Source: an uncultured Devosia sp.
Lineage (GTDB): Bacteria; Pseudomonadota; Alphaproteobacteria; Rhizobiales; Devosiaceae
Assembly: GCF_946479885.1 (NCBI RefSeq)
Contig: NZ_CAMLHM010000034.1
Coordinates: 1 to 42,286 of the forward strand
Length of the DNA stretch: 42,286 nt
Direction: 5' to 3'
Each line of letters starts with the position of its first letter. Positions within the stretch are counted from its first letter, which is position 1. Shown one piece after another: positions 19,484 to 24,034 of the stretch. The position numbers and the translations under genes are program-made. The notes under the pieces were generated by a model that worked only from the letters and a program-made list of their open reading frames with translations, did no database searches and was not told the origin of the DNA.

Positions 19484-19572
19484 GTCCTCATGGTGAGCTT
19501 GTCGAACCACGAGGTCGGGCAAACCGATCTTGCCACGACCTCGTCCTTCGACAGGCTCAGGATGAGGCTGAT
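19484..19572. repeat. Bipartite inverted repeat (TTCGACAGGCTCA family), copy C
   Basis: Third copy, same orientation as copy B: CCTCATGGTGAGCTTGTCGAA, then GGTCGGGCA...TTGCCACGACCTCG, then TTCGACAGGCTCAGGATGAGG (each piece shortened). Downstream of ltaE. Confidence 0.85.
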
Positions 19573-19573
19573 A

Positions 19574-19600
19574 GGATGGGCGGGGCAATCCCGCCCATCC
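19574..19600. terminator. Hairpin between convergent ltaE and PhyH-like genes
   Basis: A perfect 11-bp stem GGATGGGCGGG / CCCGCCCATCC with loop GCAAT. No clear T run on either side, so it may stop both convergent transcripts only weakly, or protect mRNA 3' ends. Confidence 0.55.
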
Positions 19601-19607
19601 AGTCTCA

Positions 19608-20414
19608 CTACTTGCCCAGCGTCACCCTTATCGCCAATTCCACCGGCGAATAGTCGCCATCGGCCCGCTCGAGCTGCAGCTCGCCCCGCGGCATCAATGG
19701 CGGTTGGGCCATGAACTTGACCGCCTTGCCGCGGTGTTTCTGCGCGGCATGCACCAGGAACGGGTGGCAGAGATAGACCGTGCCGGCCGGACCTGTGGCC
19801 AATGCCTCGTGGCCGGTGTCGAACCAGTCCGACCGGTCGGCGATCATGTCGCGGAGCGATCGGCCGGCGTCGCCCGCCGGCGCCAGGTAACGCGCGACCT
19901 CCAGATGCGAACTAACCCGGATACGCGTGGGCGCATCGTCTTCCCCGACGTCGGAAAACAGGAACAGCATCAGCAGCGCCCGGCCCTTGGAAACGATGTT
20001 GGCCCGGATATCGAGGAAATCCTTGAAATCGTCGTCGGTGAAGCTGCCGTCGATATGCCAGCCGTCGTCGCCGGGCTCGTCGGGCGAGGGGAAACGCACT
20101 GGAAAGGTACCCAGCCCCTGTGGCGGCGCCCACCTGTCCTTGCCCACGAGCTGGTCAAAGGCCGAAACGAGCGTGGCCGTATTGGCGGCCTGGCGGAAGG
20201 GCAGGTCGGAATAGCCGCCCAGCCGGATGACGGGCTTGGTCCAGGTGGCCGGATTGTCCGGGTCGCAACCGGTCGCCTTCCACAGGATAGGGCGGCCTTG
20301 CTCGGCCAGTTCGCGCGGGAAGGCGTTGTCGATGCGGATGAAACCGTCGGTGATGAATGCGTCGATCTGCGCTGCGGTGAGCGCGGGAATGCTGTCAGGC
20401 ATTGGAAAATCCAT
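19608..20414 (-). CDS. Phytanoyl-CoA dioxygenase (PhyH) family protein
   Basis: 268 residues; a second Fe(II)/2-oxoglutarate oxygenase unlike the one at 959 in sequence. It starts with the family's LTAAQIDAFITDGFIRIDNAF (split). The iron ligands are His-Ile-Asp at about 120-122 (WHIDGS) and a distal His at about 221 (FLVHAAQKHRG). I choose the ATG at 20414; another ATG four codons in is possible. No normal ribosome site is visible: the 9 nt just before the ATG are exactly complementary to the coding part of the upstream mini-ORF, which suggests RNA-level control. Substrate unknown. Confidence 0.85.
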   Translation of the reverse strand: MDFPMPDSIPALTAAQIDAFITDGFIRIDNAFPRELAEQGRPILWKATGCDPDNPATWTKPVIRLGGYSDLPFRQAANTATLVSAFDQLVGKDRWAPPQGLGTFPVRFPSPDEPGDDGWHIDGSFTDDDFKDFLDIRANIVSKGRALLMLFLFSDVGEDDAPTRIRVSSHLEVARYLAPAGDAGRSLRDMIADRSDWFDTGHEALATGPAGTVYLCHPFLVHAAQKHRGKAVKFMAQPPLMPRGELQLERADGDYSPVELAIRVTLGK

Positions 20415-20460
20415 AAGTTCGCAAGGCCGCTGCTGCGGCCGGATCGAGCGGGAACCGCTC
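20415..20460 (-). promoter_or_regulatory. Structured start region of the PhyH-like mRNA
   Basis: On the minus strand, two adjacent perfect hairpins, GAGCGG-TTC-CCGCTC (20460-20446) and GGCCGC-AGCA-GCGGCC (20440-20425), are followed by TGCGAACTT directly before the ATG. TGCGAACTT (20423-20415) is the exact complement of AAGTTCGCA (20511-20503) in the upstream mini-ORF. Confidence 0.55.
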
Positions 20461-20472
20461 AACGAGTGCCCG

Positions 20473-20493
20473 AAAAGGGCGCCATCAGGCGCC
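20473..20493 (-). terminator. Terminator-like hairpin overlapping the mini-ORF stop
   Basis: Minus strand GGCGCC-TGAT-GGCGCC, then CTTTTC. The loop contains the mini-ORF's TGA stop. It would end a transcript of about 60 nt unless read through. Confidence 0.65.
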
Positions 20494-20532
20494 GAGGAAC
20501 ACTGCGAACTTGGTGGACTGGATCATCATCAT
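20485..20532 (-). CDS. Candidate 15-codon leader peptide
   Basis: Encodes MMMIQSTKFAVFLGA and a TGA stop. The predicted transcript starts about 3 nt before the first ATG, so it would be read leaderless. The stop lies in the loop of a terminator hairpin, and the Lys-Phe-Ala codons (AAG TTC GCA) are complementary to the start region of the PhyH-like gene. No run of one rare amino acid is present, so it is not a classical biosynthetic attenuator. Expression is not proven; it could instead be a short regulatory RNA. Confidence 0.5.
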   Translation of the reverse strand: MMMIQSTKFAVFLGA

Positions 20533-20541
20533 GGTGGCGGG

Positions 20542-20569
20542 ACTATAGGTGAGGCGCCCGAAGTGTCAA
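20542..20569 (-). promoter_or_regulatory. Sigma-70 promoter of the PhyH-like leader transcript
   Basis: Minus strand TTGACA (20569-20564), 16-nt spacer, TATAGT (20547-20542). The expected start is the A at about 20535. Confidence 0.7.
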
Positions 20570-20590
20570 CGTCAGTGTCCTCAGTCGACA

Positions 20591-20691
20591 CCCTCCCCCT
20601 TGCGGGGAGGGATCAAGGGTGGGGGGCGGCTGGCCACGATGCAAATCGGGGCTCCCACACCCCCTCCTAGCCTCCCCCGTCGAGGGGGAGG
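20591..20691. repeat. Composite C/G-rich inverted-repeat element
   Basis: Two hairpins, CCCTCCCC-CTTGC-GGGGAGGG (20591-20611) and CCTCCCCC-GTCGA-GGGGGAGG (20671-20691), enclose about 60 bp, with further C-rich/G-rich complementarity between them. Elements of this look are common between genes in alphaproteobacteria. It lies between carB's end and the PhyH promoter. Confidence 0.7.
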
Positions 20692-20722
20692 TGCCGCGCA
20701 GTGGCCGCGGAGAGGCAGAGGC

Positions 20723-23700
20723 CTAAGCCGCGAAATAGTCCTGCAGCGGGCGAACCACGAGGCTCCCCTTCTGCAAAGCCACGATCCCTTCTACGGCGGC
20801 GAGGGCGCCGTCGATGGTGGTGTAGTAGGGGATCTTGCTCAGCAAGGCGGTGCGGCGGATGTCGCGGCTGTCGCTGATCGATTTCATGCCATCGGTGGTG
20901 TTGATCACCAGCTGCACGCCGCCATTCTTCATCGAATCCACGATATGCGGACGGCCTTCGAGCACCTTGTTGATCTTGGTGGCGGCAACGCCATTCTCGA
21001 CCAGGTATTTGGCGGTGCCGCCGGTGGCGAGGATGGTGAAGCCGCCCTCGACCAGGTGCCGCGCCATGTCCACGATATACTGCTTGTCGGCATCGCGCAC
21101 CGAGATGAAGGCGGTGCCGGACTGCGGCACCTTGGAGCCGGCGCCCATCTGCGATTTGGCGAAGGCCATGGCGAAATCGGTGTCGAGGCCGATGACTTCG
21201 CCGGTCGATTTCATCTCCGGGCCAAGCACCGTATCGACGCCCGGGAAGCGGTTGAACGGGAACACGGCTTCCTTGACGGCGATATGCTTGAGCTTCTTCT
21301 CGGTGAGATTGAAGCTGGCAAGGCTTTCGCCGGCCATGATGCGCGAGGCGATCTTGGCGATGGGCTCGCCGATGACCTTGGCCACGAAGGGCACCGTACG
21401 CGAGGCGCGCGGGTTCACTTCGATGAGGTAGATCGTGTCGTCCTTGTAGGCATACTGGACGTTCATCAACCCGCCGACCTTGAGGGCGAAAGCGAGTTCG
21501 CGGGTCTGGCGCTTGAGTTCTTCGATGACCGCGGGCGAGAGGCTGCGCGGGGGCAGGGAGCAGGCCGAGTCGCCGGAGTGAATGCCGGCCTCTTCGATAT
21601 GCTCCATGATGCCGGCAACGAAGACGTCCTTGCCATCGCAAAGGGCGTCGACGTCGATTTCGATGGCGCCGGAGAGATACGCATCGAACAGCAGCGGGTT
21701 GTCCGATAGCACCGAGTTGATCTGGCCGGTCTTGTCGTTGGGGTAGCGCTGCAGGATGTCCGGCGGCACCAGGCCCGTCAGCGTGTCCTGCACATAGCGC
21801 TCGAACTCGTTGGCCGAGTGCACGATGGCCATGGCGCGGCCACCCAGAACGTAGCTGGGGCGGATCACCAGCGGGTAGCCCAGACGTTCGGCGACAAGGC
21901 GGGCCTGCTCAAGCGAGTAGGCGATGCCGTTCTTGGGCTGGGTCAGTTCCAGCTTGTTGAGCAGCTTCGAAAACAGGTCACGGTCTTCGGCCAGGTCGAT
22001 GGCGTCGGGCTGGGTGCCCAGGATCGGCACGCCGGCCTTCTGCACCGCTTCGGCCAGGTTCAGCGGTGTCTGGCCGCCAAACTGCACGATCACGCCATGC
22101 AGCGTCCCGTTCTGCTTTTCGGTCAGCAGGATTTCGATGACGTCTTCCTCGGTCAGCGGCTCGAAATAGAGGCGATCGGAGGTGTCGTAGTCGGTCGAGA
22201 CGGTTTCGGGGTTGCAGTTGACCATGATGGTCTCGTAGCCGGCATCGCTGAGCGCAAACGCGGCATGGCAGCAGCAATAGTCGAATTCGATGCCCTGGCC
22301 GATGCGGTTCGGACCACCGCCGAGGATCACCACCTTCTTGCGGTCGGACGGGCGCGCTTCGTCGTCCACCTTGCCGTTGAACGGCACTTCATAGGTCGAA
22401 TACATGTAGGCCGTGGGCGAGGCGAATTCGGCGGCCGAGGTGTCGATACGCTTATAGGCCGGGCGGACCTCCAGCGAATGGCGGAGCTTGCGCACATCGC
22501 TCGCCTTCACATTGGCGAGCTGGGCCAGCCGCGCGTCGGAAAAGCCCATGGCCTTGAGCGAGCGCAGGTTGACCGCATCCTGCGGCAGGCCGAATTGCTT
22601 GACCTTGTTCTCGGTCTCGACAATGCCCAGCATCTGCTCGAGGAACCACGGGTCGATCTTGCAGGCTTCGTGGATTTCCTCGACGGTCAGGCCCTTACGC
22701 ATGGCCTCGGCCACATGCAGCAGCCGATCGGGCGTCGGGGTGCCGAGCGCCGCCTTGATGGCATTGCGGTCTTCGCCTTCGCCAAGGCCGGGAATGCCGA
22801 TTTCGTTGAGGCCGGTGAGGCCGGTTTCGAGCGAGCGCAGCGCCTTTTGCAGCGATTCCTGGAAGGTGCGGCCGATGGCCATGGCTTCGCCGACCGACTT
22901 CATCGCGGTGGTCAGGCGGTTGTCGGCGCCGGGGAACTTCTCGAAGGCAAAGCGCGGGATCTTGGTGACGACATAGTCGATGGTGGGCTCGAACGAGGCC
23001 GGGGTCATGCCGCCGGTAATGTCGTTGTCGAGTTCGTCCAGCGTATAGCCGACAGCCAGCCGCGCCGCGACCTTGGCGATCGGGAAGCCGGTGGCCTTGG
23101 AGGCCAGCGCCGAGGAACGCGACACGCGCGGGTTCATCTCGATGACGACCATGCGGCCATCGGCAGGATTGATGCCGAACTGCACGTTGGAGCCGCCGGT
23201 TTCGACGCCGATCTCGCGCAGAACCGCCAGCGAGGCGTCGCGCATGATCTGGTATTCCTTGTCGGTCAGCGTCAGCGCCGGGGCGACGGTGATGGAATCG
23301 CCGGTATGGACGCCCATCGGGTCGATATTCTCGATCGAGCAGACGATGATGCAGTTGTCCTTCTTGTCGCGGACAACTTCCATTTCGTACTCTTTCCAGC
23401 CGAGCACGCTTTCCTCGACCAGCACTTCATTGGTCGGGCTGGCATCGACGCCGCTCTCGACGATGGCGAGGTATTCCTCGCGGTTATAGGCAATGCCGCC
23501 GCCGGTGCCGCCCAGGGTGAAGCTGGGGCGAATGATGCAGGGCAGGCCGATCACTTCGAGCGCCTGCAACGCCTCGATGGTGTTGTGCGCCAGCATGGAA
23601 CGGGGCGTTTCGAGCCCGATCTTCTTCATGGCATCGCGGAACAGTTCGCGATCTTCCGCCTTGTCGATGGCCTCGGCCGTGGCGCCGATCATCTCGACGC

Positions 23701-24034
23701 CGAATTTCTCCAGCACGCCCATCTTGCGTAGGGAAAGCGCACAGTTCAGCGCCGTCTGGCCGCCCATGGTGGGCAGCAGCGCATCGGGGCGCTCCTTCTC
23801 GATGATCTTGGCGACCACTTCGGGGGTGATCGGCTCCATGTATGTCGCATCGGCCAGGTCCGGATCGGTCATGATCGTCGCCGGGTTCGAATTCACCAGG
23901 ATGATCCGGTAGCCCTCTTCCTTGAGCGCCTTGCACGCCTGGGTGCCGGAATAGTCGAACTCGCAGGCCTGCCCGATAATGATCGGACCCGCACCGATGA
24001 TGAGGATCGATTTGATATCGGTACGTTTTGGCAT
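20723..24034 (-). CDS. carB: Carbamoyl-phosphate synthase large subunit
   Basis: Makes carbamoyl phosphate from glutamine-derived ammonia, bicarbonate and two ATP, for arginine and pyrimidines. 1,103 residues, full length, with two homologous ATP-grasp halves. The first begins [21 protein letters not shown] (split), with [16 protein letters not shown] near 300. The second has [17 protein letters not shown] near 580-597 and [16 protein letters not shown] near 860. The last 150 residues are the MGS-like allosteric domain that binds UMP or ornithine. carA is not in the window. Confidence 0.97.

Follow-up and report, generated by a model that had tools for sequence, protein, structure and literature searches.

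We analyzed a 42,286-nucleotide (nt) stretch of DNA from an uncultured Devosia sp. (contig NZ_CAMLHM010000034.1; hereafter the window), in which a gene for a PhyH-like Fe(II)/2-oxoglutarate (Fe/2OG) oxygenase on the minus strand is preceded by a 15-codon open reading frame (ORF), MMMIQSTKFAVFLGA. This arrangement is likely an erm-like translational attenuator, in which a near-leaderless leader peptide of the arrest type controls a solitary, mobile oxygenase. In the mechanism we propose, transcription would start approximately 3 nt ahead of the leader ORF, which would be translated near-leaderlessly. When ribosomes complete the leader, or are never loaded onto it, the leader RNA would pair with the ribosome-binding region of the oxygenase and shut the gene; a ribosome stalled at or before the peptide core (FAVF, IASVFF or STFFP) would cover the leader strand, so that no long helix forms and the oxygenase is translated. 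This reading is supported in silico by conservation, by the promoter geometry, by specific complementarity between leader and start region and by constraint at the peptide level; leader translation, nascent-peptide arrest, the need for a ligand, and a ribosome-targeting natural product, modified by the oxygenase, as that ligand are inferred.

An earlier note on this DNA, made from the letters alone, had described a near-consensus promoter, the 15-codon ORF, three hairpins and an exact 9-nt complementarity between the mini-ORF and the oxygenase start region, all of which were confirmed here. The promoter and leader ORF sit between carB (20723-24034) and the oxygenase gene. The sigma-70-like promoter TTGACA-N16-TATAGT, found by promoter scan on the minus strand with its −35 box at 20564..20569 and its −10 box at 20542..20547, matches the consensus at 11 of 12 positions, and the 2.2-kb region holds two promoter-like sites compared with 0.2 in shuffles. 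The −10 box ends 9 nt ahead of the leader ATG, from which the transcript is expected to start at approximately 20535-20536; the leader itself occupies 20485..20532 on the same strand (codons 20532-20488, stop codon TGA 20487-20485), and is conserved in relatives.

The fold of the leader RNA, unmatched by 200 dinucleotide shuffles (z −4.7), consists of three hairpins enclosed by a long helix between leader codons 5-10 and the segment preceding the oxygenase start. Hairpin 1 (20466..20502, minus strand, like all elements of the fold) has an inner stem GGCGCC (20493-20488 / 20483-20478) with the leader stop codon in its loop, and an outer stem GUGUUC (20502-20497) / GGGCAC (20471-20466), and is followed by hairpin 2 (GAGCGG/CCGCUC, 20446..20460) and hairpin 3 (GGCCGC/GCGGCC, 20425..20440). 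The long helix contains 9 bp between AAGUUCGCA (20503..20511), which encodes K8, F9 and A10, and UGCGAACUU (20415..20423), corresponding to the exactly complementary 9-mers AAGTTCGCA (20503-20511) and TGCGAACTT (20415-20423). It also takes in an outer helix, AGUCCA (20514..20519) with UGGAUU (20408-20413), that would cover the probable ribosome-binding GGA (20412-20410); this GGA lies 7 nt from the start codon, within AUGGAUU (20408..20414), and would be paired with the leader in the closed state. Of the 14 Rfam matches that a search of window positions 20000-21000 gave up to E 10, none scored above the gathering threshold of its family.

The ATG at 20414, proposed previously as the start, is out of frame in 11 of 19 aligned sequences and is followed by an in-frame stop in a twelfth; therefore, the gene most likely runs from 20402 to 19608 on the minus strand (19608..20402, 264 amino acids), probably with GGA as its ribosome-binding sequence. 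The AUGGA motif is identical in all 19 sequences.

We surveyed relatives of the oxygenase by a scan of bacterial and archaeal genomes (95 confirmed loci, 80 of them used), in Devosiaceae (matches in 50 of 121 genomes, 30 loci used, with 20 further stretches added), in Hyphomicrobiales (matches in 26 of 297 genomes at E 1e-60) and on plasmids (34 records, 8 of them examined); removal of duplicates left 144 distinct upstream regions. Leaders were called by a rule blind to the peptide core: an ATG ORF of 6-17 codons with at least two Met in the first four, located 85-300 nt upstream. Such a Met-cluster mini-ORF lies ahead of 98 of the 144 relatives; random windows drawn from these loci contain one in 97 of 3520 cases, a rate that predicts about 4 of 144 by chance. 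Furthermore, when both promoter boxes were required, 146 of the 156 Met-cluster mini-ORFs in 1.33 Mb of partly overlapping loci precede the oxygenase. Three further loci (L128, L143, L152) carry a conserved core with a single Met and fall outside the rule; L024 and L163 are outside the 98-leader set because the first in-frame ATG gave a longer ORF, and no start codon was found for L012. The leader accompanies the oxygenase in most Alphaproteobacteria examined, with the complementarity kept, often in other letters; the loss of conservation that the earlier note had named as refuting was therefore not observed. Outside this class, leaders occur in Nannocystis (2), Polyangium, one Kofleriaceae genome and one of two Pyxidicoccus. 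On the oxygenase tree, a quick one with many weak branches and with L024 mislabelled 'none', leader presence clusters, changing 13 times compared with 38.6 in shuffles. By these comparisons of upstream sequence, the mini-ORF is real and widely conserved, mostly in Alphaproteobacteria and also in some myxobacteria, across more than one phylum.

Some candidates were rejected by hand: the mini-ORF MRFMGSA of L040, one of the 98 counted by the rule, and second ORFs in L115, L153 and L165 were dropped as likely chance matches. Actinomadura peptides such as MLLGALIGVFLHAG were not retained as leaders, as the upstream sequence there reads as the ends of an upstream coding region.

The promoter geometry seen in the window recurs in the relatives. 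Of 98 leader loci, 50 have a −10-like hexamer, xAxxxT, whose end falls precisely 9 nt ahead of the leader ATG; no offset beyond the range −10 to −6 is found in more than 13. A TTGA or TTGC starting between −41 and −31 is present in 89 of the 98, compared with 7.4 expected from shuffles. A transcript starting 6-7 nt past the −10 box would carry a 5' leader of 2-3 nt, and hence the mini-ORF would be read leaderlessly or nearly so.

We then evaluated the pairing between leader and start region by computing the cost of opening positions −13 to +3 of the oxygenase start, with the leader available or masked, for the window and 97 relatives. In these 98 attenuators, opening the start costs 9.7 kcal/mol with the leader available and masking the leader saves 5.15 kcal/mol, a saving that falls to 1.88 kcal/mol with swapped leaders and 1.76 kcal/mol with codon-shuffled leaders (Wilcoxon p ~1e-16; because the loci are related and the energies modelled, the p-values overstate independence). 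The native saving was larger than the mean of its controls in 92 of 98 attenuators, and in 42 of 98 it was larger than every one of the 12; similarly, the best single leader/start helix surpassed the mean of the swapped controls in 79 of 98. The helices differ in their letters from locus to locus, for example CGAUAAUUCAGCA/UGCUGAAUUAUCG in L008 and CUUUCAACAUCG/CGAUAUUGAAAG in L018, next to AAGUUCGCA/UGCGAACUU in the window.

Alignment of the 19 Devosiaceae sequences revealed that 89.0% of cells pair in the drawn structure, compared with 31.6-44.4% when it is slid, and that both sides changed in 10 of 39 pairs; shuffles gave 4.7, and none of 500 reached 10. The stems of hairpin 1 are paired in 92.9% and 93.9% of cells, hairpin 2 in 91.2% (both-side changes in 4 of 6 pairs) and hairpin 3 in 99.1% (3 of 6 pairs). 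In the 9-bp helix, the central 7 pairs are kept in 18-19 of the 19 sequences and the two end pairs are broken in 11 and 9, and the six pairs of the outer AGUCCA helix are each broken in 1-8. In silico, the leader RNA is accordingly modelled as sequestering the ribosome-binding region of the oxygenase. The earlier proposal, that mini-ORF RNA may hide the oxygenase start and that leader ribosomes may alter this, is thus supported in silico by conservation, by the pair counts and by the leader-swap controls; its termination part found no such support.

That termination part amounts to transcription attenuation, where a terminator forms unless ribosomes stall. The CUUUUC that follows hairpin 1 in the window, previously read as a terminator tail, would fit, as would U-tailed, terminator-like hairpins in 6 of 97 relatives (L008, L051, L125, L128, L149, L152), set against 2.6 expected from mononucleotide shuffles. 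However, the U-tail is not conserved in the 19 aligned sequences, 91 of the 97 relatives have no such hairpin, and a scan of 19500-21700, in which Rho-dependent termination was not tested, found no terminator-like site. We therefore regard transcription attenuation as quite unlikely.

The leader peptides fall into a few classes: Ia, FAV(F/H/Y)(L), in Devosia, Pelagibacterium, Bosea and Polyangium; Ib, (N)IA(S/T/A)(V/A)FF, in Rhizobium, Bradyrhizobium, Nannocystis and others; Ic, FASVFL, in Devosiaceae; and II, S(T/S/V)FFP(L), in Paracoccus, Sinorhizobium and others. A few leaders are short (MFMTRTR twice, MTMMMTRLR, MMMTIIR, MRMAPML). We measured selection as the ratio of nonsynonymous to synonymous variation (pN/pS) in five clades drawn from the oxygenase tree regardless of peptide, with peptides aligned before counting and rows related and unweighted; an initial codon count on leaders grouped by peptide pattern, in which invariant residues are circular, was superseded by these clades and not used. 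The ratio was 0.52 in the Rhizobium/Bradyrhizobium clade (21 distinct leaders), 0.29 in the class II clade (15), 0.40 in the window's clade (12) and 0.32 in a fourth clade (7). In the window's clade, core residues F, A, V and L are unchanged in 12 of 12 leaders, with Ala encoded by GCA in 6, GCG in 3 and GCC in 3, and Leu by four codons; similarly, I and A are unchanged in all 21 leaders of the Rhizobium clade, with three Ala codons. These codon counts favor selection acting on the leader peptide, and a core that is kept while its codons change points to nascent-chain arrest.

We then shifted a ribosome footprint codon by codon along the leader in the folding model. In class I leaders (n = 74), the start region gained 2.2-5.3 kcal/mol in opening while the P-site was no more than 4 codons beyond the core Ala, and the gain dropped to 0.3-0.6 kcal/mol from 5 codons beyond it, near the end of the leader. 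This profile suggests that completing the peptide would close the gene, and that stalling at or before the core would open it. In the window, the gain was as much as 4.8 kcal/mol over the first codons, 1.5-2.9 kcal/mol from K8 to L13, and nil at the last codon.

Several results weigh against an arrest-based attenuator, in addition to the limited independence of the p-values. The saving in the window is modest (3.4 kcal/mol, from 9.2 to 5.8, with controls at or below 2.4), and 4 of 97 relatives show no saving (L009, L046, L100, L105). The count of 'further pair types' in Devosiaceae is less clear (44 of 500 shuffles as high), and in the long helix only 2 of 15 pairs changed on both sides. No leader was found by the rule in 46 of the 144 relatives, three of which have a single-Met leader with a core, and the Larkinella leader (L051), with the weakest helix of all and almost no complementarity, may be a chance match. 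In class II (n = 18), opening persists to the stop codon, as it does in the short leaders L008 and L142, and L140 gains little anywhere; stalling early, at the Met codons, would in the model open the gene equally well. Furthermore, a control with erythromycin esterase (39 matches in 38 of 297 Hyphomicrobiales genomes) revealed no such leaders in the 30 loci examined: a single Met-cluster mini-ORF occurs in the 600 nt ahead of an esterase match (L198, at −41, too near by the rule; the flank of L190 was shorter and left uncorrected), and with promoter boxes required, the one Met-cluster ORF anywhere in these loci (L192) is on the strand opposite the gene. In the same 297 genomes, chloramphenicol acetyltransferase matches occurred in 3.

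Two further points on this side, a pN/pS of 1.08 in the Pelagibacterium clade (8 distinct leaders) and the pairing of class II Phe codons (UUCUUC) with the ribosome-binding sequence GGAGAA, by which part of the conservation may reflect RNA pairing, would also suit plain coupling. Here any ribosome on the leader would open the start, with neither arrest nor inducer, and the peptide would be kept because its codons must pair; the model agrees in that ribosome positions between the leader start and the core open the start region. Plain coupling nonetheless accounts poorly for the pN/pS of 0.29-0.52 in the other four clades, and pairing alone would not favor the silent changes at the unchanged core Ala and Leu of the window's clade. 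We consider it unlikely, and retain nascent-chain arrest as the preferred explanation.

The Met and Phe codons raise the question of amino-acid attenuation, in which the leader would sense charged Met-tRNA or Phe-tRNA as trpL senses Trp. Most leaders begin with MM or MMM, the modelled start region opens when a ribosome is placed at these initial Met codons, and most cores contain Phe codons. However, starvation for one amino acid fits poorly, because four leaders (L024, L051, L141, L142) have no Phe and three that bear a core (L128, L143, L152) have a single Met. In the tree-based clades, Ala, Val, Ile and Ser are also kept, and the codons behind the Ala, Val and Ser residues vary; a mechanism that counts codons has no need of this. 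A shortage of Met should slow initiation as well. The earlier note was right that there is no amino-acid codon run; none is shared besides the initial Met codons, themselves missing in the three core-bearing leaders. Amino-acid attenuation is, in our view, very improbable.

The attenuator resembles, and differs from, several known systems. The erm attenuators rely on drug-arrested leader peptides. Those of the erm type (ErmCL, ErmDL) likewise combine a short leader ORF and short conserved cores with leader RNA over the ribosome-binding region of the next gene, which a stalled ribosome would free; here, by contrast, the leader is probably near-leaderless, the PhyH-like oxygenase is not a known resistance gene, and one gene family has several peptide classes. 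Three leaders end in Arg-X-Arg (MFMTRTR in L008 and L140, MTMMMTRLR in L024), like MefAL (MTASMRLR) and the ErmDL core, for which PMC10314930 describes Arg-X-Arg in macrolide arrest; three such endings in about 100 leaders could be chance. Chloramphenicol and linezolid, as described in the review PMC13410324, arrest ribosomes when Ala occupies the E site, and to a lesser extent when Ser or Thr does. Since several short cores serve one gene, some leaders end in Arg-X-Arg and small residues are kept, our leading guess for the inducer is a ribosome-targeting natural product.

TnaC and SpeFL, both named in PMC10314930, are metabolite-sensing leader peptides. As with these, small-molecule-dependent arrest of the nascent chain could induce a gene that acts on that molecule. 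The peptides here are shorter than TnaC and SpeFL, and by eye they look unlike them in sequence.

Rhizobial trpL (peTrpL), to which the earlier note had likened the region, similarly has a leaderless short upstream ORF in Alphaproteobacteria followed by hairpins (PMC7298713, PMC10117765). The likeness holds for layout and nothing beyond it: the leaders here have no run of codons for a single amino acid and no conserved terminator, and the gene lies outside amino-acid biosynthesis. The same papers (PMC7298713, PMC10117765) describe peTrpL as a leaderless 14-amino-acid leader peptide with a trans role in antibiotic resistance, and the leader peptide or RNA could in principle act in trans here too, like peTrpL/rnTrpL of Sinorhizobium meliloti. 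However, the complementarity that we found is in cis, to the start region of the gene itself, in an analysis where no trans target was sought, and we hold a trans role to be hardly probable at all.

The controlled enzyme was characterized by structure prediction. The oxygenase model (predicted local distance difference test, pLDDT, 93.9) gave Foldseek and VIA matches to Fe/2OG oxygenases of the PhyH fold, and is predicted to adopt a double-stranded beta-helix with an HxD...H motif. H116 and H218 are invariant and D118 is kept in at least 90% in alignments; we take H116, D118 and H218 to be the ligand residues of this motif. Its structural neighbors HygX, GriE, proline hydroxylase H11, EctD, KanJ and SnoK share the PhyH fold, with at most 20% identity among the matches listed. 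A sequence search of the PDB found no relative up to E 1. At the limits applied, neither Pfam nor NCBIfam assigned the window's protein to a family; some relatives carry PF05721. The other 49 sequences in the alignment share 47-84% identity with the window's oxygenase.

Among the 25 largest ORF clusters in loci above 6500 bases, drawn from simple longest-ORF calling with antisense ORFs included, no neighbor is common across genera, save between Devosia and Pelagibacterium; carB is present in 11 of 80 loci. As relatives also occur on plasmids, this lack of shared neighbors indicates a solitary, mobile gene. A single in-frame stop interrupts one relative, in Pelagibacterium sediminicola (L008 6001-6786; L120 is the same place), which probably reflects a broken gene or a mistake in assembly; the leader region there nevertheless retains a perfect leader/start helix of 13 bp. 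On a Paracoccus alcaliphilus plasmid (L091 98-1681), an ABC-F family gene lies near an oxygenase relative, with one gene between.

Relatives in which the rule found no leader include all 15 Actinomadura, 3 Streptomyces, 1 Pseudonocardia, all 7 Corallococcus, the sole Myxococcus and five named Alphaproteobacteria (L011, L023, L060, L064, L072). In the three Streptomyces plasmids (L095, L096, L098), the oxygenase relative adjoins an AraC-family regulator gene and is preceded by a ACCCGACA...TGTCGGGT-like inverted repeat, which suggests another mode of control there.

Searches of plasmids with the leaders themselves gave no match for the window's leader region (blastn, E 1e-5) and four chance-like records, one of them examined, for the L025 leader. 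The class II leader matched 13 records, 8 of them just upstream of an oxygenase relative (partial in Microvirga); the remaining five matches, of which those in Shinella and Gemmobacter were examined, had E 0.03 to 4. On plasmid pShin-02 of Shinella sp. HZN7 (L172 2502-2534), the class II-like mini-ORF MSTFFPLIWK has no oxygenase relative annotated nearby, and is either a leftover or a chance match (E 0.03).

Two intergenic repeats flank the region in the window. Between the genes for a beta-eliminating lyase and the oxygenase, an inverted repeat with 32-nt arms that are 84% complementary (19486-19567) resembles a REP-type intergenic element. Just downstream of carB, a C-rich inverted repeat (CCTCCCCCTTGCGGGG / CCCGTCGAGGGGGAGG, 20592-20691) is probably a dispersed intergenic repeat.

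In the open-licence PMC literature, we found no report of this leader, nor of the oxygenase as a resistance gene. Leader-peptide attenuators are known as a kind, and the probably near-leaderless variant with several arrest-like cores ahead of a PhyH-like oxygenase in more than one phylum appears new. A broader reading, that these leaders form a new ligand-dependent arrest family across more than one phylum and induce a mobile Fe/2OG oxygenase able to inactivate a natural product aimed at the ribosome (macrolide-, phenicol- or tunnel-binder-like), is possible, and we advance it only tentatively, with more doubt than confidence.

If the attenuator is as proposed, the cores FAVFL, IASVFFL and STFFPLI would be candidate new nascent-chain arrest peptides acting on near-leaderless mRNAs, and the downstream gene would provide a direct handle on the inducing compound. 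A leader reporter screened against translation inhibitors could then reveal both the ligand and the substrate of an uncharacterized, horizontally spread oxygenase. Should the detoxifying reading also be true, the enzyme would be an unrecognized inducible antibiotic-detoxifying enzyme of soil bacteria. Furthermore, erm-like translational attenuation would be in wide use in Alphaproteobacteria, and also occur in some Myxococcota, to control a gene that is not among the known resistance genes.

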